A DNA stretch of 64,000 nt. Origin: Pseudoxanthomonas sp. SL93. Lineage in GTDB: Bacteria > Pseudomonadota > Gammaproteobacteria > Xanthomonadales > Xanthomonadaceae. Both the position numbers and the translations under genes were made by a program. Where the stretch lies: assembly GCF_026625825.1 (NCBI RefSeq), contig NZ_CP113065.1, forward strand, positions 2,356,001 to 2,420,000, in the 5' to 3' direction. Positions 6,834 through 36,564 of this stretch are shown here, one piece after another; position 1 is the first letter of the stretch; each line of letters begins with the position of its first letter. The notes beneath the pieces were generated by a model. It was not told the DNA's origin. It made no database searches and worked only from the letters and a program-made list of their open reading frames with translations.

Positions 6834-9538
6834 GGCGTCGGAAGGCTCCGGGGAAGGGGGGGATCGGAGGGAAGCGCATCGGCCAGCGAACGTATCCGCA
6901 GGGCGCTGCGCAGGGTATCGAGGTTTGCACCGGACGCGATCCGCAGTGACGTGCGTTCGCCCGGCAGCACTACCAGTGCATTGTCGGACAGGTCGGCGTC
7001 GACCTGGCCGAAGTCGACCCACACGGCGCGTGCCAGCGACGCGGCGGTGATATCGAGCATGTGATGGTCGCCTTCCTGCCGCAGGTGCGTGCGCAGGCCC
7101 GGATCGGGCCAGCGCATGTCCTTGGCTGCGGCGAAATGGACGACCTCGCGCGCGGCGGGTTCGCCGTCGGCGACCAGGTCGAACATCGCGACCGTCGCCG
7201 CTGGCGATGCGCCGCCCAGCAGTTCGGCATCGCTGTAGGTGGCCATGCGCGACGCCGACAGCGGTGCGATCTCGACACGCCGTGCCTCATCCCGCAGCAC
7301 GCGCCCGTCCAGGGTCATGACGCGGAGGCGCAGGGTGCCGCCGCGCGGCGTGGTCCGGTCGGAGATGAGGCTGACGGTGGTTCGTCCTTCCTTGCGCAGG
7401 GCGGCCACGGTCACCGGCGCGAAGAACCGGCGCGCATGGAACTGCAGCGCCTTCCAGCGCCCGAACCAGTCGATGCCCGACCACGACGCGCCGGGCCACA
7501 CATCGTTGAGCTGCCAGTACAGCGAACCCATCGTGTAGGGCCGGCTGGCGCGGTGGTGCCGTGCCGCCAGCCCGATGCCCTCGGCCTGCATCACCTGGCT
7601 GAGGTAGACGAAATCGCCGAAGTCGCGCGGTTCGCCGAATTCCATGCGCACATAATGCAGCAGACGCTCGTTGCCCTTGCCGGCCATGAACTTCTGGTGG
7701 GCCTCGATCACCGGCGCATCCACACGCTGCTCATCGCGCGCCACGAAATGATCGATCGTGCGTTGCACAGGCCACGCCTGCAGGCCGTACTCGGACATGA
7801 AGCGCGGGGTCACGTCCAGGTAGGCCGACGGCGGGCGCGCCGGATTGCCCCACACCTCCCAGTAGTGCATGTCGCCGCTGGACGGCGTGTTCGCCACCTC
7901 GGCCATGTCGTCGCTGGGCGAGCTCGGCCAGTAGGCGATCCCGCCGGCCTCTTCTTCCACGACCCTGCGCAGGTCATGGCCGAACAGCTGCGCGTAGCCG
8001 TCCCAGACCCGTTGCGCGAACACCGGATCGGCTTCCTTCAGCGCCTTGCCGTGGCCCCAGTATTTCCAGGCGATCTCTTCTTCGTTGTTGCCGCACCACA
8101 GCACGATGCTGGGATGGTTGCGCAGCCGCCGCACCTGGTCGCGGGCCTCGGCCACGACGTTGGCGCGGAACGCGGGGTCAAAGGCGGGCTGCATGCCACC
8201 CCCGAACATAAAGTCCTGCCAGACCAACAGGCCGAGTTCGTCCGCGATGTCGAAGAACGCATCGCTTTCGTAATAGCCGCCGCCCCAGTTGCGGATCATG
8301 TTCATGTTCGCGTCGACCGCCGACTGCAGCACGCGCCGCAGCTGCGCGGTGGTCACCCTGGGCTGGAACATGTCGAACGGGATCGCGTTCGCGCCCTTGG
8401 CGAAGATCGCGATGCCATTGACGGTGAAGGCAAAGCCCCTGCCCTTTTTATCCTCGTCACGGCGCAGCGCGACACTGCGCAGGCCTGTGCGTTCGCCCCG
8501 CGCATCGATCACCTGCGTGCGGTCGAGCATCTCCAGATCGAAGCGGTACAGCGGCTGTGCTCCATATCCGGCGGGAAACCAGCGCCGTGGCCTGTCGATA
8601 CCGAACGCTTGCGTAACCTGGTTGATGCCGGCCGCCAGCGATACCTGTTGCGTCGCCACAAGCGCGCGGGCGCCATCGGGGTCGGTTCGCCAGAGGCGTA
8701 CCGTGTAACGGCCCGCGCGCACTGCGTCGATGGCCGCGACCGCGGTGATGTCCGCGCGCTCTTCCGTGACGCGGTCCTGGCGCAACTGCACGTTGTCGAT
8801 CCGTGCACGGCTCCAGCTCTGCAGATGCACCGGCTTCCAGATGCCCGCCGTGACATAGCGCGGCCCCCAGTCCCAGCCGTAGTGGTAACCCGGTTTGCGC
8901 ACGAAGTTCGCGGTCATCGCGTCCTTCGGTTCGTCGCCGTAGGGCGAAGGATAGTTGCCGGCGATCCGGTGCGGCATCGCCTGCACCCGCGGCAGCAGCT
9001 TCGCGATCGGCGAGCGCAGGACCACGCGCAGTTCGTTGCTGCCCACGCGCAGCCGTTGCTGCACGGGCACGCGCCATGTCCGGAACGCATTGTCGGCGTC
9101 AAGGAGTTTCTCGCCGTTGAGGAAGACCTCGGCGAAGGTATCCAGCCCTTCGAACACCAGGTCGCTGCGGGGGGCGTCGCGTGCATCGCGGGATACGTCG
9201 AACGTCGTCCTGTATTCCCAGTCGGCCAGGCCGATCCACTGCAGCCCGGCCTCCGGGGCACCCCGGTAGGGATCAGCGATCAGGCCGTTGTCGAACAGGT
9301 CCGTGTGCACGGTGCCGGGCGTCGTTGCGCGATGCCATTGCCGTGCCTGGGCGGGGCCGGCGCTGGGCGTGCCATCCGCCAGTTGCCTGAATTCCCACCC
9401 CGCATCCAGCACGCGTTCGCTTACCGGCTGCGCCATTGCCTGCACGGACGCCGCAATCAGCGCGAGGATGCAGAGCACACGCACCGACCATCCGCGGCAA
9501 GGAATGCGGCCCGCCTTGTGCGTGATGAAGCGCGGCAT
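6830..9538 (-). CDS. GH2 beta-mannosidase
   Basis: Exo-beta-mannosidase that removes the core beta-1,4-mannose of an N-glycan. The 902-residue product has an N-terminal signal sequence (VRVLCILALIAASVQAMAQ), a jelly-roll sugar-binding domain, an immunoglobulin-like domain and the TIM barrel. The acid/base is Glu486 in LWCGNNEEEIAWKYWG and the nucleophile Glu583 in RFMSEYGLQAW; the WCGNNE form is typical of beta-mannosidases rather than beta-galactosidases. I chose the ATG at 9538 because GGGGAG lies five bases upstream; in-frame ATGs further upstream lack a ribosome binding site. It is the first gene of its operon, driven from the 9539-9820 intergenic region. Confidence 0.92.
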   Translation of the reverse strand: MPRFITHKAGRIPCRGWSVRVLCILALIAASVQAMAQPVSERVLDAGWEFRQLADGTPSAGPAQARQWHRATTPGTVHTDLFDNGLIADPYRGAPEAGLQWIGLADWEYRTTFDVSRDARDAPRSDLVFEGLDTFAEVFLNGEKLLDADNAFRTWRVPVQQRLRVGSNELRVVLRSPIAKLLPRVQAMPHRIAGNYPSPYGDEPKDAMTANFVRKPGYHYGWDWGPRYVTAGIWKPVHLQSWSRARIDNVQLRQDRVTEERADITAVAAIDAVRAGRYTVRLWRTDPDGARALVATQQVSLAAGINQVTQAFGIDRPRRWFPAGYGAQPLYRFDLEMLDRTQVIDARGERTGLRSVALRRDEDKKGRGFAFTVNGIAIFAKGANAIPFDMFQPRVTTAQLRRVLQSAVDANMNMIRNWGGGYYESDAFFDIADELGLLVWQDFMFGGGMQPAFDPAFRANVVAEARDQVRRLRNHPSIVLWCGNNEEEIAWKYWGHGKALKEADPVFAQRVWDGYAQLFGHDLRRVVEEEAGGIAYWPSSPSDDMAEVANTPSSGDMHYWEVWGNPARPPSAYLDVTPRFMSEYGLQAWPVQRTIDHFVARDEQRVDAPVIEAHQKFMAGKGNERLLHYVRMEFGEPRDFGDFVYLSQVMQAEGIGLAARHHRASRPYTMGSLYWQLNDVWPGASWSGIDWFGRWKALQFHARRFFAPVTVAALRKEGRTTVSLISDRTTPRGGTLRLRVMTLDGRVLRDEARRVEIAPLSASRMATYSDAELLGGASPAATVAMFDLVADGEPAAREVVHFAAAKDMRWPDPGLRTHLRQEGDHHMLDITAASLARAVWVDFGQVDADLSDNALVVLPGERTSLRIASGANLDTLRSALRIRSLADALPSDPPLPRSLPTP

Positions 9539-25997: not shown

Positions 25998-26030
25998 TCA
26001 GGCGCGCTGTCCGCGTGTTTCAGAAATGAA

Positions 26031-26209
26031 GAGCGGGCCGATGGCCCGCTCCGTGGTGCGTTGATGCCGGTGGCCGTCAGGTGGACGGTTCGGGTTCTTC
26101 TTGCGTGCGCCGCTTGCGGTCGAAGCGGGCACCCAGCGCCTGCCGCAGGGTATGAAGGCCGTCGCCGCGGCCGACTACCTTTGCGAAAAGGTACGCTGAC
26201 CCTTGTTTT
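26031..26209 (-). pseudogene. Duplicated 175-bp gene-end module, copy A
   Basis: The minus strand reads GRGDGLHTLRQALGARFDRK, then RRTQEEPEPST and a stop, followed by the hairpin AGCGGGCC-GAT-GGCCCGCT (26032-26050). Only the last 30 or so codons of some gene are left. The same module lies at 28771-28948. The other end carries TTTGCGAAAAGGTACGCTGA, a decayed form of a CTCTGACCCC repeat. I do not recognise the parent gene. The rest of 25998-26386 shows no other gene. Confidence 0.6.
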
Positions 26210-28672: not shown

Positions 28673-28770
28673 GTCTTCAAACCCCTGTTTTCTGGGGGCG
28701 ACAACAAGCCGCCAAAGCGAGACCAGGGTGCAGCAGCGGCCCTCGCCTTGATTGCGACCTTCCAAATAAA

Positions 28771-28948
28771 AAGCGGGCCGATGGCCCGCTCCGTGGTGCG
28801 TTGATGGGGGTGGCCGTCAGGTCGACAGTTCGGATGCTTCTTCCGTGCGCCGCTTGCGGTCTAAGCGGGCGCCCAGCGCCTGGCGCAGGGTGTCCAGGCA
28901 GTCGCCGCGGCCGGCCACCTTTGCGAAAAGATACTCTGACCCCTGTTT
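28771..28948 (-). pseudogene. Duplicated 175-bp gene-end module, copy B, with terminator
   Basis: The minus strand reads GRGDCLDTLRQALGARLDRK, then RRTEEASELST and a stop, ending in the hairpin AGCGGGCC-ATC-GGCCCGCT and TTTTTATTT, a good Rho-independent terminator. It is colinear with copy A at 26031-26209 over the whole length. The parent gene is not recognised. No other gene is seen in 28561-28985. Confidence 0.6.
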
Positions 28949-28985: not shown

Positions 28986-29828
28986 CTACTTCATATCCAA
29001 CTCGGGGCGGCTCAGCCACACGTTGCGGCTTGGATCGCTAGAGCCGCCAAGTTCCTCGGTGGTGTACGCACGAGGTAGTAACGAGTCCCACTGCCGTTGT
29101 GCAATCACTTCGGCCGAAAAGAGGCAATTCGCTAAGTTCTGCACGCGCCCCTTGTAGTAGTTGGCGGCATAGTATGTTGGTGATAGTTGCTCATGAAGAT
29201 TGCAATACACCGACAACTCCATGAGGAGTCGCCTTTCTTTGTCAAAGTAGATGTTCCAATCGCTTTGCACAGCCGCGCGGTTGTCGCTGAAAACCTGCAT
29301 CCCACGTGGACCGATCATGGCGTTGTCCAGAAGCTCCAACGTCCCCTCTTCATCGACCACCACAGATTTCGATTCCCTGGTATGGGTTCTTCTGAGCGCG
29401 CCTGAGTCTTCGACTCCGATGTAGAAGCCGCCCGGCAAGGTGCCGCCAAGAAGCTCCTTGATCTCACTAACAATGGCTTCCATGCATCGTTCAATCTCCT
29501 GAAGCTTTGCGGACTTTTGCGTTTCGTCCAGCTCTTGCTTGAGAAGCCTGTTCTGCTCCTTCATCTCCTTACGCGTGGTCTCTGACTCTTCTTTCGTTAT
29601 CTCTAAGGTTCGCAGAACCAGAAGAACCGTTATGAATCCAATGAAAGGATTCATGATTCCGCCAATGTAGTCGCCGAAAGTTCCCCAATCCGTCTTGTTG
29701 TCTGAAACGTCGGGACCAAACGTGAAGGTGTAGTAGAGAACGGCGACCAGGGTCACTACCAGCACCGCAACTGTTGCAAGCCAATCGGTATTTCTCTTCT
29801 TTCCTTCTTCCTTGTCTTCTTCACTCAT
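28986..29828 (-). CDS. Two-helix coiled-coil membrane protein, PutAbiC-like
   Basis: 280 residues. Helix one spans about 15-37; after the loop motif DWGTFGDYIGGIMNPFIGF helix two spans about 55-75; a charged coiled coil follows (76-115) and then a soluble domain. The WGxFGDxxGGxxNP loop plus helix and coiled coil is the layout of proteins annotated as putative phage abortive infection proteins. GGAGGATCCAGC precedes the ATG, a strong ribosome binding site. Base composition is visibly more AT-rich than in the flanking chromosome. Assignment to that family is by resemblance and is moderate. Confidence 0.6.
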   Translation of the reverse strand: MSEEDKEEGKKRNTDWLATVAVLVVTLVAVLYYTFTFGPDVSDNKTDWGTFGDYIGGIMNPFIGFITVLLVLRTLEITKEESETTRKEMKEQNRLLKQELDETQKSAKLQEIERCMEAIVSEIKELLGGTLPGGFYIGVEDSGALRRTHTRESKSVVVDEEGTLELLDNAMIGPRGMQVFSDNRAAVQSDWNIYFDKERRLLMELSVYCNLHEQLSPTYYAANYYKGRVQNLANCLFSAEVIAQRQWDSLLPRAYTTEELGGSSDPSRNVWLSRPELDMK

Positions 29829-29886
29829 GCTGGATCCTCCAGTAGGGCTCGACGAACCAGAAATATGACACCTATGGCGGCATGCG

Positions 29887-30104
29887 TCAGGCGGTCACCG
29901 CGGCGACGATGCGGTCGGCGGTGTCGGCCAGGTGGGTGAAGCGGTGGGCCAGGCCGGCGCGGGGCAGCAGCAGGTCTTCGGGATGTTCGGTTTCGGGGGG
30001 CTGAGCTGGGCCAGCAGGTGCAGGTGGTCGCGCAGGGCCTGCAGTTCGGCGTGAGCCTCAGTGGGCAGGTTGTAGCCGGGGTCGATGAGCGTTCCGTGCG
30101 TCAT
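29887..30104 (-). pseudogene. Small gene (about 71 codons) broken by a one-base deletion in a C run
   Basis: From ATG 30104 the frame reads MTHGTLIDPGYNLPTEAHAE, continuing to LLAQLSPP. At 29995-30000 a run of six G (plus strand) shifts the frame; adding one base restores ETEHPEDLLLPRAGLAHRFT, continuing in protein-like sequence to a TGA at 29887. In the present frame a proline/threonine-rich tail without sense follows. A true frameshift and a homopolymer sequencing error cannot be told apart here. GGAC precedes the start. Family unknown; it may be a small regulatory or antitoxin-sized protein. Confidence 0.6.
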
Positions 30105-30138
30105 GGCGATGTCCTTCCGCGTGCGGGTGCTAGGCGTG

Positions 30139-30165
30139 CCTGCGGGCGCTCTGTGCGCCCGCAGG
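30139..30165. other. Strong hairpin in the leader of the small broken gene
   Basis: CCTGCGGGCGC and GCGCCCGCAGG pair perfectly (11 bp) around the loop TCTGT, 35-61 bases upstream of ATG 30104. It may stop transcription or control translation. 30166-30284 shows no gene. Confidence 0.5.
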
Positions 30166-30284
30166 GTGTCGGGAGGGTCGAAGCTGTAATCAGCCAGCCG
30201 GGCGTATTTCCCTTTCGGGTGTTCTATTCCGCCCCCTCCCGACGTAGAACGGACTGCGTCGGAAGCGCCCAGTGTATGGGGCAC

Positions 30285-30313
30285 AAAAAACCCACCTGAG
30301 TTGCCGGGGTGGG
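30285..30313 (-). terminator. Rho-independent terminator downstream of the NTPase gene
   Basis: Read on the minus strand, CCCACC pairs with GGTGGG and six T follow. It lies 155 bp past the end of the KAP-like NTPase gene and probably ends the island transcript. Confidence 0.6.
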
Positions 30314-30467
30314 TGCCGCTGAATATCGGAGATTCGACGCTCCTTGGAGACAAGTTTGCGTCGGGGATGGCGTGGTGTCTATTTACATTCTTGGGGCGGA
30401 GCTCAGTATATGGCTTACGCCTCGGCTCGGTTAGCCAAGCTCTGCTCGGACACGCGATGCCCTAAGG

Positions 30468-32228
30468 CTATCCAGCCTCGCCAGAATCAGCAGTCTCAAT
30501 GCCTTCTTCCAGAGCCAGTCTGGCCACCCTGATCTGGTCAAGCCGATTGCTTCGAGAAATCAGTCTCAGCGCCGCACCAAGCTTTCTCTTCGCGGCACTC
30601 GCGCTAGCCACTGGGTAAGGATCAAGAATCCCCTTGATAGAGCTCCTAAGTTCGGCGCCTTTTGTCTCGATTAGCCAATCTCTAATCTCCTCTACTGACG
30701 ACGAGGCGACGACGGCATATGAACCCTCTTGATCGTCCAAACGCGAAGAAATATTGGACATAGCTTCCCGGAGCGTGACGGTTGACTGAGCATCATTCCG
30801 GGCTTTCTCGACTCTCGCCCTAAACCATGCATCTCGGATCGGCCTGAACAGCTCAATCTCCTTCATCTGAAACATGGGTCCCGCTAGAGGCAATCTTGAG
30901 GCAACCCATGCAGCGCCGCACTCTTCTGCCCAGGCATCTTTATCGAGCTCCCTAAGCAGACATATGCTCGAATCTATATTCAGTGCACTCTCGTACTGAG
31001 CAGAAGCGAGTGTCGCCTCATAAAACCTGCCTGCAAAAAGTTCTGCGTCGCCGCCGTAGCCGTCGTGAAACTCAGACCAAACCGCACTGTAAACAGCGGC
31101 GACATCCTCGGCACGATGCTTCCGATCAAAATCTTTCAACAAACTCCGATACTCAGCCGGAAAGTATCCGTCCGAAACAAACTTAGCGAAGCACTGATCA
31201 ATCTGATCCGGGTAGTAGGCCACATCATCCAAGATTCCATCCCAAGCTTTCTCGTCCGAACTCCTATCATCATTACCTAGTGCGGCAGCCACGCCAGACC
31301 AATGACCGTGCTTGAGTGCACGCGATACTGGCGGCGCCCCTTCTGCTCTTCCCTCATGGCAATAGGTCAGTACGGCAATAGATTTCGCCATTGCCCGCTT
31401 TGCACCCTCATGCAACTCGGGATCAGACTCAGCCAATGCAGCATCTACATTCGATATGACGCGGGACGCAATCCTCAAATTGCTACTTTTAAGCTTCTCT
31501 AGAATCACGAGCGCCTCACGTTGGCACTCATCACTTGGCTCACCAAAGGCGGCCCTGATCGCAGCGCCAACTTCCGGCGCATAAGTCATCGCGCGATCTA
31601 CAACCTTTTCCCGATGCTCCGCCCAAATGATCCTATCTTGCGCATTCAGCTGCTCTACATTCGAAATAATGAGAACGGCGCAGCCTTTCTCGACGGCCAA
31701 CTGAGAAACAACACCCAGAACATCCTTGAGCAGGAGACCATCACCGCGTCGTTCCAAATCATCCAGACAGACAAGGTGATCCTTGAACATCCCATAGGCA
31801 ACACTGGACCACTGATCCCCTAGGCTTCCAGTCCATGGATTTGAAAGTCTTGATAGGGCACCGGTACTTTTCCTGATGGGATTTTCCTTCCAGAAATTCC
31901 TCAACGTCTCGATATTGAAAGACTGATCAACGCTAGGCCGATGAGCATCGGACGAAGGAATCGACCTCTCAAACAGGCTTCGCTTCAGATCCGAAAGAGA
32001 ATTCAATCCAAACAAAGATACATAACAGTACTTCGCCATCCCAAAACCGGTCGAAGTCCTAAGCAATGATTGCCATAGGTGCGTCTTTCCTCGCCCCCAC
32101 TTTCCTTGTAGAGCAAGTACGGATGGAGTCTTTTGAAGAATAAACTTTTGTAGCGCTCGCACTTGAGGCTTGGTGCTGTCATCGAGAACTAAGGACAACG
32201 GATATTCCGCAGACAGCGTGGCACTCAT
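30468..32228 (-). CDS. KAP-like P-loop NTPase
   Basis: 586 residues, no signal peptide. Walker A is GKWGRGKT at 42-49 and Walker B HLVCLDDLER at 151-160, followed by AVLIISNVEQL. This order (GKWGxGKT, then LDDLER) is that of KAP and STAND-type NTPases, several of which act in phage defence. The C-terminal 350 residues are helical with no known domain. I chose ATG 32228 with GAGGGG upstream over a TTG at 32243. It is the last gene of the four-gene minus-strand cluster, 62 bp after the coiled-coil gene. A hydrolase or effector domain is not visible, so the output of the NTPase is unknown. Confidence 0.75.
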   Translation of the reverse strand: MSATLSAEYPLSLVLDDSTKPQVRALQKFILQKTPSVLALQGKWGRGKTHLWQSLLRTSTGFGMAKYCYVSLFGLNSLSDLKRSLFERSIPSSDAHRPSVDQSFNIETLRNFWKENPIRKSTGALSRLSNPWTGSLGDQWSSVAYGMFKDHLVCLDDLERRGDGLLLKDVLGVVSQLAVEKGCAVLIISNVEQLNAQDRIIWAEHREKVVDRAMTYAPEVGAAIRAAFGEPSDECQREALVILEKLKSSNLRIASRVISNVDAALAESDPELHEGAKRAMAKSIAVLTYCHEGRAEGAPPVSRALKHGHWSGVAAALGNDDRSSDEKAWDGILDDVAYYPDQIDQCFAKFVSDGYFPAEYRSLLKDFDRKHRAEDVAAVYSAVWSEFHDGYGGDAELFAGRFYEATLASAQYESALNIDSSICLLRELDKDAWAEECGAAWVASRLPLAGPMFQMKEIELFRPIRDAWFRARVEKARNDAQSTVTLREAMSNISSRLDDQEGSYAVVASSSVEEIRDWLIETKGAELRSSIKGILDPYPVASASAAKRKLGAALRLISRSNRLDQIRVARLALEEGIETADSGEAG

Positions 32229-32290
32229 TCCCCGACCCCTCAATTACTTCGAACAGTCTGTAGAGCAAAAAGAGTAAGCCTTTCGTACCC

Positions 32291-33760
32291 CTAGACAGGC
32301 TTTTTCTCGACCTCGTCATTAGCAGCAAGTCCTTCTTCAATCTTGGTATCTTGCTCCTTCAGAATGACATCACGCCGCGCTGCTAGCTTTTTCGCGAGAG
32401 CGGCCATTCCAGGAATTTTGGACAGGGCATCGACCGACTCCGAGAGGCGCGCACTCTTCTCAAGTACGTCCATAAGAGGGTGATCAGCCTTGCCGTAATC
32501 GGTGATTAGCTTCCCCGGATTCTCAGCACTGACTTGCAGGACGTTAAACAACAGACGGGTGCGCAATTCTTCCTTCACAAGGCTCTCATGAGGGAGAGTT
32601 TCAATTTGATTGGAGAGACCTGAGAATGTCTTTCCAAGAACCGCTTTGTGCGTGTACTCCTCGATCAATCTCTTTGAGAGGTTAAGACGCTTATTTGCCG
32701 AGTAGGCCAGCCAGAGAACCGGAAAATATAGAGGAAGAATCGCAAAGATCAGTTTTGGCGCATCTCTTAAGACATCTGCGAGCGTGGCGCCGCCAACGAG
32801 CAGATACACATCCACACCAAAAGGGATCAGTGATATTAGTACCAGGCCGACTACGGCGAACCTGAAGTTTCGCTCGTGGGATGAGAGTGACGAGCACTCC
32901 TCCTCCTTCTTTGCCTCATAGGCGGCGCTAAGCCCTGCCGCCAAGCCACCCGGAAGCAAAGCCTTCAATTGGCCCACCACGTCATCGAGTTCTACGCGGC
33001 CGCCTTTTAGCAAGCTAGCAAACTCTTCAGTTTGCGCCTCCCGAAGACGAAGCTGATCCGCCTCGACCTTAGCAACCTTCTGATCAACCTCTTCGTCAAG
33101 CACAACCACTCGGCTGTTTAGACCCTCAAAAGCCTTGTTCAATTCGTCTCGCAGCCCATCCACTCGCTCTACGTTTCCTTGATCATCCTCAACATCATGA
33201 CCAAGAACCTCCTTGTGAACCTCGTCGAGCTCCATTTTTCTTTTCACTGAGTGCGACAATAAGCTTCTAATGTTTTCGCTTGATGCATTTGCATCAAGCA
33301 CCTGCTTATTGAGATTTTCGAGAGAAGGTGGAATTTCTTGAGCTTGTGCAAGAAACCGCTCGACCTCCTCAATCCGCTCTTGGACCGTGTTTACAAGCTT
33401 CTGGGTGGACTGCTCAGCAACTTCCATCTTCTCAAAAAGCGCAATCGACTCACTCGCCTTGCGCCTCAAGGACTCTGCATCCTGCAGGTAATCGTTACGA
33501 GATGAAGAAACTTCCGCCAGATTATCTTGTACTTGCCCCTTCGCTTTTCTCACATCCTCAATGGCAGCCTGCATTTCTTCGGCAAGCGATTCAACTTTCG
33601 CCCTACTAGCCTCGGCGGCGATTAATGCACGCTGCGCATCGATGGCAGATTCGTTAGCAGTCGCTGTTACCTGCTTTTCAAGGCTGGCAATTCTCTCTAC
33701 TGTCCAAGCCCTTAGCTTTTCGTATTCCGCAGGATCAACGCCCTTATCAAACAGCCCCAT
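32291..33760 (-). CDS. Long coiled-coil protein with two membrane helices
   Basis: 489 residues. Residues 15-265 are almost continuous heptad-like coiled coil rich in Glu, Lys and Ala. Helix one lies at about 300-324 (FAVVGLVLISLIPFGVDVYL) and helix two at 336-354, then a soluble helical tail containing NLSKRLIEEYTHKAVLGKTF. The layout suggests a membrane-anchored sensor or scaffold. I set the start at ATG 33760, with GGAGGG five bases upstream, rather than ATG 33772. It sits between the alarmone-synthetase pair and the NTPase. Family not recognised. Confidence 0.7.
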   Translation of the reverse strand: MGLFDKGVDPAEYEKLRAWTVERIASLEKQVTATANESAIDAQRALIAAEASRAKVESLAEEMQAAIEDVRKAKGQVQDNLAEVSSSRNDYLQDAESLRRKASESIALFEKMEVAEQSTQKLVNTVQERIEEVERFLAQAQEIPPSLENLNKQVLDANASSENIRSLLSHSVKRKMELDEVHKEVLGHDVEDDQGNVERVDGLRDELNKAFEGLNSRVVVLDEEVDQKVAKVEADQLRLREAQTEEFASLLKGGRVELDDVVGQLKALLPGGLAAGLSAAYEAKKEEECSSLSSHERNFRFAVVGLVLISLIPFGVDVYLLVGGATLADVLRDAPKLIFAILPLYFPVLWLAYSANKRLNLSKRLIEEYTHKAVLGKTFSGLSNQIETLPHESLVKEELRTRLLFNVLQVSAENPGKLITDYGKADHPLMDVLEKSARLSESVDALSKIPGMAALAKKLAARRDVILKEQDTKIEEGLAANDEVEKKPV

Positions 33761-33895
33761 TTCACCCTCCATCCTTTGAATGAGAAATCAATCTTCGGCT
33801 CCGGATCAGGCACTTCCCTGCAAGGGAATTTTTATATCTCCTAGTAAGGCTCCACTCCATCAAGCGCCGCTGCGCGCGCGTTAGCTCATCCCCAT

Positions 33896-34159
33896 TTAAC
33901 TGCTGGATGGCTTCCGATTGATTTGATCAATTGAATCACCCATCTGCCGCACATCCCTAAAGTATCGGCTATGACTTTTCCGAAGCGCATCTTCAGACGC
34001 CGCTTCCAGAACGACGACTTCTCGCGTAAGACCTTTCGTCATTAGCGAGATCTCAAGCTCCAGCCTGGCTTTAGACGCCTGCTCACGACAAGTCGAGTCG
34101 AACACCTCAAGAGAAACCAACTGCCCAGCGGAGCGATCGTATTCCAAGAGAAAGATCAT
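33896..34159 (-). CDS. 87-residue protein overlapping the alarmone synthetase
   Basis: Small soluble protein: strands at the N terminus (MIFLLEYDRSAGQLVSLEVF), a helix (CREQASKARLELEISLM) and a second helix ending RDVRQMGDSIDQIN. Its ATG overlaps the stop of the RelA/SpoT gene (ATGA), so the two are translated together. Size and coupling match the antitoxin of a toxSAS pair, but I recognise no antitoxin family, so the role is inferred. No gene is seen in 33761-33895. Confidence 0.65.
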   Translation of the reverse strand: MIFLLEYDRSAGQLVSLEVFDSTCREQASKARLELEISLMTKGLTREVVVLEAASEDALRKSHSRYFRDVRQMGDSIDQINRKPSSS

Positions 34160-34920
34160 GCGACTGTCTCCAACTGGAACTCCGCAGATCTAAAGTCAAC
34201 TTCGTCTCGGACGTTTTGCAAGAATCCAGTCAATCGTTCGCGCCCATCGAAGAAGCGACGATCCGTCTCTCGAAGATCTTTTTTGATTCTTTTCCTAATT
34301 CTGGGGTTCGTACGGGATCCATCCATTGCGGCCATCAAGGCGAGGCGCCTCCCCTCGGCTCGCTCAATTCCGTCAATGGAATCCGAGATATTCTGAAGAA
34401 AGCGAAGGGCGTCAGGATCTCCGATCCCGTACTTGAGCCCGGGATCTACCACGTCAGAGAGCCGTTCCGAGATTTCAGCCCAGAGATGCTGAAGCCTGGT
34501 CCGCAGCTGCACCTCCACCTTAACTCCATCGAAGCTTGCAACTAGGTGGATGGCCCGGTAGCCATGACTAGGCTGACTGCGTCGGTCAAAAACTTGCGGG
34601 TCATCCAGATATACCTGCATTGCGCCTAGCGCCCTGCGCTGTTGAATGATGTCTTCGACAACCACCCGACAACCCGCAATGTCTTGCATTTGGCTAAGTC
34701 GAGAGGACTGTCTCTTCAGCTTGTCAACGATAGCGCCAGTCGATTTTGCAGGCCTACCAGTCACCTCATGCCGCAGCTCAGAGAGACGCTCACACACGTG
34801 CGCATAGGCCGGACCAAACGAATTTCTATAAGCCTCCAACTCCGTCAACACCTTAGCGTCGACTAGCCCTTCGCGGAGACGGTCGCCAAGTTTGTCGATC
34901 TGGGTTCTTGAGTGCTGCAT
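34156..34920 (-). CDS. RelA/SpoT-domain nucleotide pyrophosphokinase (small alarmone synthetase or toxSAS)
   Basis: 254 residues with a stand-alone RelA/SpoT synthetase domain. Key residues are in place: GRPAKSTGAIVDKLKR (55-70) with the ATP-binding basic residues, QDIAGCRVV (79-87), HGYRAIHLV (119-127) and VEVQLRTRLQHLWAEISERL (135-154) with the catalytic Glu136. There is no HD hydrolase domain, so it cannot degrade its product. Housekeeping RelA and SpoT are far longer. Synthetases of this type make (p)ppGpp or ppApp, or pyrophosphorylate tRNA. It begins 18 bp after nrdJb and has a weak ribosome binding site. Which product it makes cannot be told from sequence. Confidence 0.85.
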   Translation of the reverse strand: MQHSRTQIDKLGDRLREGLVDAKVLTELEAYRNSFGPAYAHVCERLSELRHEVTGRPAKSTGAIVDKLKRQSSRLSQMQDIAGCRVVVEDIIQQRRALGAMQVYLDDPQVFDRRSQPSHGYRAIHLVASFDGVKVEVQLRTRLQHLWAEISERLSDVVDPGLKYGIGDPDALRFLQNISDSIDGIERAEGRRLALMAAMDGSRTNPRIRKRIKKDLRETDRRFFDGRERLTGFLQNVRDEVDFRSAEFQLETVA

Positions 34921-34938
34921 GTCCGAACTAAGGGCAGC

Positions 34939-35739
34939 TCAACCGCACTTCGAATAACCACAGTTCAAGCACGTCGCACACCCGTCCATGATGACGAGCG
35001 CCTTGGTGTTGCACTTGTGGCAGAGCGTGGCGGTGGGCGGGAAGCTGGCGCCGTCGCCGGTGACGGCGATGTCTTCGGCGGCGCCTTGGGCGGGCGCGGC
35101 CGGTGCGGCGGCGGGGGCCGCGCTTACGTCAGAGTTTTTTTTTGCGCGGTCTTCGTACTGCTTGCGCTTCTCGGACAGGATGGCGCGCTGGTGGTCGCTC
35201 ATCTGCGGGTCGTGGATCAGGCCGATGGACTTCATGTGCTCTTCGACGATGGCGCCCAGCTCGGCCACCAGCGACGGCATGTACACGCCACCGGCCTTGA
35301 AGTAGCCACCGCGCGGGTCGAACACGGCCTTCATCTCGTCCACCAGGAACGTCACGTCGCCGCCCTTGCGGAACACGGCGGACATGATGCGCGTCAGCGC
35401 CACGATCCACTGGAAGTGCTCCATGGACTTGCTGTTGACGAAGATCTCGAACGGACGGCGCAGCTCGTGCTCGGTGCCCGCGTTCAACACGATGTCGTTG
35501 ATGGTCACGTACATGGCGTGTTCCACCAGCGGCGACTTGATCTTGTAGGTGCTGCCGATGAGGACTTCCGGGCGCTCGATGCGCTCGTGCATCTGGATGA
35601 TGTTGTCCTGCGGCAGCTCCGCTTCCACCGTGGCGCGGCTCACCGACGCGGCCGTGACGGCCTGCGCGGCCTCGCGGGCCTTGTCTTCCGGGGTGAGGAC
35701 GCTGTAGCCCTTGATTTTCTTGTCGATCTTGACGGCCAT
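34939..35739 (-). CDS. nrdJb: Class II ribonucleotide reductase, small component NrdJb
   Basis: 266 residues. It carries the part of the class II reductase that is fused in other bacteria: RRPFEIFVNSKSMEHFQWIV and GGYFKAGGVYMPSLVAELG, an Ala/Pro linker, then a cysteine ribbon at the C terminus (CHKCN, CATCLNCGYSKCG). As in Pseudomonas aeruginosa, NrdJa and NrdJb together reduce ribonucleotides with adenosylcobalamin. The start ATG at 35739 has a weak ribosome binding site. A histone-like gene separates it from nrdJa. The low-GC island begins 18 bp downstream. Confidence 0.9.
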   Translation of the reverse strand: MAVKIDKKIKGYSVLTPEDKAREAAQAVTAASVSRATVEAELPQDNIIQMHERIERPEVLIGSTYKIKSPLVEHAMYVTINDIVLNAGTEHELRRPFEIFVNSKSMEHFQWIVALTRIMSAVFRKGGDVTFLVDEMKAVFDPRGGYFKAGGVYMPSLVAELGAIVEEHMKSIGLIHDPQMSDHQRAILSEKRKQYEDRAKKNSDVSAAPAAAPAAPAQGAAEDIAVTGDGASFPPTATLCHKCNTKALVIMDGCATCLNCGYSKCG

Positions 35740-35847: not shown

Positions 35848-36465
35848 TTACTTACGGGCCGCTTTTTTTGCTGCTTTCTTCGCGGCTTTCTTCGGGGCTG
35901 CCTTGCGGACGGCTTTCTTGGCCGCCTTCTTGGGTGCGGCCTTCCTGGCCGCTTTCTTCACCGGCGCCTTGCGGGCGACCTTCTTGGCTGCTTTCTTCAC
36001 CGACTTCCTGGCGACGACCTTCTTGGCCGTGGCCTTCTTGGCGACCTTCTTGGTGGCCTTCTTCACCGTCTTCTTGGCGGTGGCCTTCTTGGCGGTCGCC
36101 TTCTTGGCCGTTTTCTTGGTGGCTTTCTTCGCCGTCTTCTTGGCGGGCTTCTTGCCGGTCACCTTCTTCTGCAGGCTGGCCGCTTCGGCCTTGGCGCTGG
36201 CACTGGCGGCGGCCAGCTTCTTCTTGGCCGTGGCGACGGTCTTCTTGACCGCCTTGGTAGCCTTGTCGGTGCGCTTGGCCACGGCCTTCTTCGCCTTGGC
36301 GAGGTCGGCCTTCACCGTCTTCTGTGCTTTCTTGGCGGCCTTCTTCGCCTTGGCCACCGTGGCACTGGCCGTGCTGGCCACTGCTTCGCCGATCTCCACG
36401 GCCTTGTCCTTCACACTCTCGGCGGCGCCGGAGAGCGTCGCCGTGACACCATTACCGTTGCTCAT
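35848..36465 (-). CDS. Histone H1-like lysine/alanine-rich DNA-binding protein
   Basis: 205 residues. The first 70 form a helix rich in Ala and Val; the rest is a low-complexity tail of AAKK, ATKK, AAPKK and VARK repeats, about one third Lys. This matches the HctB/H1-like proteins of betaproteobacteria and gammaproteobacteria that condense DNA. AGGAGG lies five bases before ATG 36465, an excellent ribosome binding site. It lies in the same direction between nrdJa and nrdJb. Tail length is likely to vary between strains because it is repeat-built. Confidence 0.88.
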   Translation of the reverse strand: MSNGNGVTATLSGAAESVKDKAVEIGEAVASTASATVAKAKKAAKKAQKTVKADLAKAKKAVAKRTDKATKAVKKTVATAKKKLAAASASAKAEAASLQKKVTGKKPAKKTAKKATKKTAKKATAKKATAKKTVKKATKKVAKKATAKKVVARKSVKKAAKKVARKAPVKKAARKAAPKKAAKKAVRKAAPKKAAKKAAKKAARK

Positions 36466-36564
36466 GCTGCCCTCCTGTTGGGCGTAGGTTGTGACGCTGC
36501 CGATGCTATACCCGATTGCGCGGGGTGGAACGGTGAAGGCGATGAATCGAAGCTTGCCGGGTAA

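Follow-up and report, generated by a model that had tools for sequence, protein, structure and literature searches.

Directly downstream of nrdJb in Pseudoxanthomonas sp. SL93 lies a run of low-GC genes whose products recall several kinds of phage defense, which raises the question of whether these genes form one undescribed system or a set of unrelated ones. The window analyzed here is the whole stretch of 64,000 nucleotides (nt) from this strain (NZ_CP113065.1, positions 2,356,001-2,420,000), and all coordinates below count from its first letter; L- and G-numbers denote the loci and genomes compared. An initial annotation of the window had proposed a single AT-rich island with a defense or stress module of a hitherto undescribed combination: a RelA/SpoT synthetase (rel), a coupled 87-amino-acid protein (s87), a coiled-coil two-helix membrane protein (cc), a KAP-like nucleoside triphosphatase (NTPase; kap), and a PutAbiC-like protein (p280), all in one direction. 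Much of this description stood, including a RelA/SpoT-type toxin at a defense location, but the view of the genes as one undescribed system of this combination did not. The island is very probably a stack of independent, defense-type cargo located directly downstream of nrdJb at a site where defense genes are exchanged, with rel–s87 as a PhRel–ATphRel-type pair and with cc and kap as separate modules. This reading draws on homology and conservation, on the order of the genes and their exchange at the site, and on the occurrence of the modules apart from one another. The features on which the argument turns are the following (aa, amino acids).

34939..35739, minus strand: nrdJb-like TSCPD gene, 266 aa (Pfam TSCPD, 6.8e-7), kept in relatives; left edge of the hotspot.
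34156..34920, minus strand: rel, 254 aa, putative toxin of the toxic small alarmone synthetase (toxSAS) type, PhRel/CapRel group (PF04607, 5.8e-14; PDC-S33, 2.7e-29; catalytic columns).
33896..34159, minus strand: s87, 87 aa, putative antitoxin-type partner (PDC-S33 positions 265-342; hhalign to CapRel 286-373; HSRYF motif; predicted model).
32291..33760, minus strand: cc, member of an undescribed coiled-coil two-helix membrane family (homologs, alignment, hydropathy).
30468..32228, minus strand: kap, KAP-type P-loop NTPase, PDC-S49-like (KAP_NTPase, 22.6 bits; PDC-S49, 9.3e-20; Walker motifs).
30160..30243, minus strand: sRNA-Xcc1 (RF02221, 67.8 bits), right edge of the exchanged segment.
28986..29828, minus strand: p280, membrane protein with two helices, lying beyond the exchanged segment (phrog_8999, 5.4e-20; two hydrophobic stretches).

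The drop in base composition was borne out. In 500-base windows, the GC content was 0.49–0.55 across 30.5–35.0 kb and 0.55 over p280, compared with 0.58–0.74 in the remaining windows of 20–45 kb, and the GC content at third codon positions was 0.51–0.63 in the five island genes, compared with 0.91 in nrdJb and 0.94 in nrdJ. All five open reading frames (ORFs) lie on the minus strand where the initial annotation had placed them. The low-GC tract is, however, not one island: rel–s87–cc–kap (34920–30468) make up one patch and p280 (29828–28986) another, split by a conserved piece at approximately 29884–30389 that carries sRNA-Xcc1. When the segment was shuffled 300 times with a first-order Markov model, the longest run without a stop codon was 187 codons on average and 354 at most, so the ORFs of 493 and 591 codons that contain cc and kap are not products of chance; the reality of rel, s87, and p280 rests on homology. 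Judging from the reading of the ORFs, with the lengths of P0001 and P0121 as a guide, cc likely starts at the ATG at 33760 (489 aa) and kap at the ATG at 32228 (586 aa).

The pair that begins the island is the part that is most readily assigned. The rel gene starts 18 nt after the nrdJb stop codon and is therefore probably read from the nrdJ–nrdJb transcript, and it overlaps s87 by ATGA (i.e., two ORFs in one bicistron), in agreement with the coupling described in the initial annotation. The RelA_SpoT synthetase domain (PF04607) occupies residues 58-150 of Rel, and no other Pfam family was matched up to an E value of 1. Both proteins fall on a single PADLOC model, the single-protein candidate PDC-S33, of which rel covers positions 7–216 and s87 covers positions 265–342. 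CapRel-SJ46 (from phage SJ46) matched the same model end to end (7e-87); the model therefore represents the CapRel family, with s87 as the counterpart of its C-terminal antitoxin end. Comparing the profile of 22 s87 sequences with that of 12 proteins of the fused type likewise placed s87 on CapRel residues 286–373 (hhalign probability, 90–93; E values of 1.5e-6 and 5.6e-8 in two settings). The motif LKRTHSRYF of ATphRel (Phrann gp30) recurs in the window's s87 as LRKSHSRYF, and in a 37-row s87 alignment the H, R, and F of HxRYF are invariant and the Y nearly so; CapRel has YXXY at this place. The columns of CapRel K81, R116, G-loop Y155, R184, and Q188 are invariant in all 23 split and all 12 fused rows chosen, while the R79 column varies, with Pro in both the window's rel and PhRel. 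The predicted structure of s87 (mean predicted local distance difference test [pLDDT] score of 84, with residues 1–60 at ~95 or more) has the order strand-strand-helix-strand-helix, which is in keeping with the antitoxin domain of CapRel as passages of PMC9712102 describe it, a three-stranded sheet with a connecting helix. With regard to the pseudo-zinc-finger fold of the antitoxin, a fold search with this model named CapRel solely among weak, tied rows. On these sequence features, rel and s87 look like a bicistronic toxSAS toxin-antitoxin pair of the PhRel–ATphRel/CapRel group, and thus like a known kind of module. They lie outside the fused CapRel class, since toxin and antitoxin are encoded in two ORFs and not in one.

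The same synthetase domain also matches housekeeping enzymes (NCBIfam PRK10872, 3.6e-7; YjbM chains, 2e-5), as would be expected if rel made (p)ppGpp or (p)ppApp and served in stress regulation or as a toxin that depletes nucleotides, instead of being a defense toxin that modifies tRNA. We consider this improbable, given that the best matches of rel among solved structures are CapRel (1.3e-7), that its partner is antitoxin-type, that it stands at a defense hotspot and has a sister clade inside type I restriction-modification (R-M) operons (both described below), and that PhRel and CapRel toxSAS are reported, in passages of PMC11559606, to modify tRNA. The same source states that PhRel, PhRel2, CapRel, and FaRel2 pyrophosphorylate tRNA 3'-CCA ends and that PhRel:ATphRel is a bipartite pair with narrow-spectrum phage defense, and prevention of superinfection by PhRel is described in part of PMC7591505. 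For rel–s87 as a toxSAS pair, we infer toxicity, neutralization, a trigger, and a phage phenotype along the following lines. The s87 protein would dock on the synthetase domain of rel, and its HxRY motif would block the ATP site, in the place of the YXXY motif of fused CapRel, which blocks the adenine site according to passages of PMC9712102. A phage product would then bind s87 or otherwise free rel.

Homologs of the pair were collected by scanning genome contigs with rel as the query, and the best 80 of 89 loci were retained. Of the 48 closest loci, 46 were matched by a hidden Markov model (HMM) built from 37 s87 sequences; the other two, L008 and L046, are cut off at a contig edge. Among the 32 more distant loci, 26 were matched, and in 25 of these the match lay within one frame of 347–390 codons, so these represent fused CapRel-type proteins. 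In the split loci, rel and s87 mostly overlap or almost touch, frequently by ATGA. A tree of 35 synthetase domains contains one branch, with a support of 100/100, that parts the split type (with PhRel) from the fused type (with CapRel), although the placement of PhRel itself, on a long branch (3.55), is unsure. The row closest to the window's rel is L001 (60% identity over 189 columns), and Pseudomonadota, Planctomycetota, Acidobacteriota, and Gemmatimonadota are represented among the split loci. In L008, L021, and L030, thiC lies directly upstream of rel, so nrdJb is not the only housekeeping gene that rel follows.

One clade of these pairs lies inside type I restriction operons. Nine of the 80 rel loci (L036–L040 and L042–L045) have hsdM directly upstream of rel–s87, with hsdS following in eight and hsdR in eight; L043 ends soon afterwards. 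The rel gene is found at position 8001 in most of these loci (4809 in L038 and 3946 in L039). Pfam matches on L037 comprised N6_Mtase/HsdM_N, Methylase_S, AAA_13, and HSDR, and five of the nine loci contain a PrrC-like AAA gene. The s87 proteins of this clade have an extra C-terminal hydrophobic stretch in the alignment (measured on L036). In a related operon on a Shewanella plasmid, hsdM overlaps hsdS with no gene between them. PrrC guards against restriction inhibitors, and the embedded rel–s87 clade could do likewise. Literature searches on toxSAS with type I restriction, on small alarmone synthetases with hsdM, and on KAP with PifA did not turn up any description of rel–s87 within hsd operons; the restriction passage in PMC10440598 concerns RloB.

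The position of the pair is as telling as its sequence. A DNA comparison covered 41 genomes, 24 of which belong to the same genus in addition to the window's own. Among the matches listed, relatives share nrdJb and the 29884–30389 piece but not the interior (30390–34930). The post-nrdJb region was taken from 20 of the 24 same-genus genomes (all except G300, G301, G304, and G310); in tblastn searches of these regions, nrdJb was matched in 20/20 and cc in a single region (L125), whereas none of the 20 gave a match to rel, s87, or kap. The first cargo genes of 17 relatives were then compared with PADLOC (L130 ends at a contig edge, and L133 and L139 were left out), and strong matches were found in eight: SIR2 and HerA (L121), Drt3a and Drt3b (L122), a CBASS cyclase and phospholipase (L123), PtuA (L124), a ThsA-like SIR2 protein (L126), DarT and DarG (L128), LmuA and LmuB (L132), and PDC-M36A, itself merely a candidate (L129). 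Five relatives gave weak matches (L127, L136, L137, L138, and L140), and four gave none (L125, L131, L134, and L135). With starts taken mechanically, 15 of the 17 have a first cargo ORF that begins no more than ~140 bp from nrdJb and shares its strand; the exceptions are L126, with cargo on the opposite strand, and L132, where the cargo begins ~780 bp on. Beyond the cargo, sRNA-Xcc1 was found in 6 of 10 relatives scanned; it is present as a single copy in the window's genome and was the sole Rfam match across the window. The site after nrdJb thus behaves as a defense hotspot, a fixed site with differing defense cargo in relatives. Strong PADLOC matches were lacking in 9 of the 17 cargoes, which makes the stretch from nrdJb to sRNA-Xcc1 a convenient region in this group in which to seek new defense systems. 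The cargo of L127, L131, L134, L135, L136, L137, L138, and L140 comprises candidate unknown defense genes.

Do the genes at this site work together in the window? The initial annotation had proposed a search for co-occurrence of the four proteins rel, s87, cc, and kap in other genomes and had named beforehand, as one refuting outcome, that the genes would be scattered in relatives. Their common strand, similarly low GC content, small gaps, and two conserved edges would suit one system in which rel–s87 is the effector, cc the membrane part, and kap the sensor NTPase, as would the finding that cc-like and rel–s87 homologs each recur directly after nrdJb in other genomes. Against this, cc, kap, and p280 were matched by tblastn in 0/80 rel loci, many of which are short or cut by contig ends, and cc was matched in 0/80 by HMM. 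In L001, from an uncultured Xanthomonadaceae metagenome-assembled genome, rel–s87 follows directly after nrdJb without any match to cc or kap. Neither cc nor s87 was matched in the 14 kap neighborhoods inspected, and the 15 kb around a cc homolog on a Vibrio plasmid had no annotated KAP or RelA/SpoT gene and no match to rel, s87, or kap. Because cc and kap were unmatched in the 80 rel loci and cc and s87 in the 14 kap neighborhoods, a four-gene system is not supported; we rejected it on co-occurrence and regard it as highly improbable. The modules rel–s87, cc, and kap, being found in separate loci, occur apart, which was among the refuting outcomes named beforehand, and independent cargo remains the preferred account of the island.

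The identification of kap as a KAP-like NTPase held up: it scored 22.6 bits against Pfam KAP_NTPase (cutoff, 20) and carries the Walker A motif GKWGRGKT and a Walker-B-like LVCLDDL. Many KAP NTPases have membrane helices inserted in the P-loop domain; the hydropathy profile of kap shows no more than a single weak hydrophobic stretch, at residues 170-188. There were 64 homologs at E values of ≤0.001 among the candidates scored, mostly with <35% identity, and no stretch of the viral contigs fitted the search patterns for kap. Seven genomes of a class sample of 369 and 13 of a family sample of 395 gave a match; both figures include the window's genome, and the other genomes with a match number 17 in all. 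Fourteen of these were inspected (all but G313, G825, and G888), some with distant kap-like proteins, such as that of L183, which was unmatched in plain tblastn; the neighbors were mostly unrelated genes. L181 suggested a conserved pair of a KAP protein with a membrane coiled-coil neighbor, which was rejected on finding that the neighbor is RmuC. On its own, kap may be an NTPase defense candidate.

The cc protein is the part of the island that could be new. In line with the initial annotation, it has a long N-terminal helix and two hydrophobic helices (307-325 and ~338-359 in the numbering of the 493-aa ORF), and the homolog alignment shows a highly conserved C-terminal half. There were 865 homologs at E values of ≤0.01 among the candidates scored, with Stenotrophomonas, Pseudomonas, Undibacterium, and Neisseriaceae among those named. 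No Pfam family scored above its cutoff, and one PHROG family of unknown function was matched (1.4e-4). A relationship to SMC, JetC, or LmuB was rejected, as the PADLOC and NCBIfam matches were weak and confined to the coiled coil. The predicted structure (predicted template modeling [pTM] score of 0.29; mean pLDDT, 70) was too poor for a fold search. In the class and family genome samples, the window's genome alone gave a full-length cc score; the viral contigs yielded one cc locus, with cc running to the contig edge, and the plasmids one (the Vibrio plasmid). In L125 (G235, same genus; HMM E value, 2e-22) and L177 (G170, same family; 1e-17), a cc-like gene comes first downstream of nrdJb, so that three genomes, including the window's, carry cc members or distant relatives as cargo at this site. 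A further distant relative (L174:4673-6124) adjoins cas4 in a group of type I-C cas genes (cas4, cas7, csd1, and cas5) and a repeat-rich stretch, standing where cas1-cas2 would be expected. The cc protein may act on the membrane as an effector, with the coiled coil as its sensor. Tentatively, it could represent an undescribed single-gene anti-phage family, with a coiled-coil sensor on a two-helix membrane effector and a highly conserved NLSKRLIEEYTHKAVLGKTFSGLSNQI-type core, which perhaps works with kap in the window.

A firmer tie between the two, in which cc and kap would form a two-gene system of membrane coiled coil and NTPase beside an unrelated PhRel pair, might be read from their adjacency (~60 nt apart), their similar composition, and the presence of predicted membrane helices in cc alongside at most one weak hydrophobic window in kap. 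We nevertheless judge it unlikely, since none of the 14 kap neighborhoods inspected contained a cc match (L178, L182, and L183 are short on one side because of a contig end) and since, in family samples of 395 genomes that are apparently the same, kap was matched in 13 and cc in 14 (mostly weakly), with the window's genome as the sole overlap. The close cc homologs in Stenotrophomonas and Pseudomonas, which would provide the best test, were not placed in their genomes. Separate cc and kap modules therefore remain our preferred reading.

The fifth gene, p280, is outside the exchanged segment, past the hotspot edge marked by sRNA-Xcc1, and its relation to the island genes is unproven. The backing for its proposed likeness to PutAbiC is weak: of three matched plasmid records, one, a distant homolog, bears the annotation "putative phage abortive infection protein" (identity of 32% across 37% of the query), and PutAbiC was absent among Pfam matches up to an E value of 1. 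Elsewhere in the window, a DNA search of the own genome revealed a repeat with 89% identity (28764-28948 and 26024-26208), and the interval between nrdJ and nrdJb (~35848-36487) encodes a Lys/Ala-rich stretch that, by eye, is histone-H1-like.

Compared with known systems, kap matches the models of both PDC-S49 and the KAP NTPases and has few homologs, and its function is predicted from sequence. The sister clade of rel–s87 that sits within type I R-M operons resembles DarTG2, which is embedded in a type I R-M system of enteropathogenic Escherichia coli (EPEC) according to passages of PMC12255303; unlike DarTG2, which lies at hsdS–hsdR, it stands after hsdM and before hsdS and belongs to another toxin family, and such embedding is not the window's own situation. 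With CapRel-SJ46 (PDC-S33), rel–s87 shares the same two domains in the same order, s87 corresponding to the antitoxin end, but CapRel-SJ46 is one fused ORF where the window has two genes, and the split family has His in place of the first Tyr of YXXY. The nearest likeness is to PhRel–ATphRel (gp29–gp30 of mycobacteriophage Phrann), which also comprises two genes with the toxin first, a short RelA_SpoT toxin, and a small HSRYF partner, and the window's rel falls on the split side of the tree, as PhRel does with its unsure placement. The differences are that rel–s87 is chromosomal in a Gram-negative bacterium, that its genes overlap by ATGA whereas gp29 and gp30 are 7 nt apart, and that the sequences are distant. 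Two-gene PhRel-type toxSAS pairs, so far tested in a mycobacteriophage, are thus found in many phyla, with one such pair at a chromosomal defense hotspot and one clade built into type I restriction operons.

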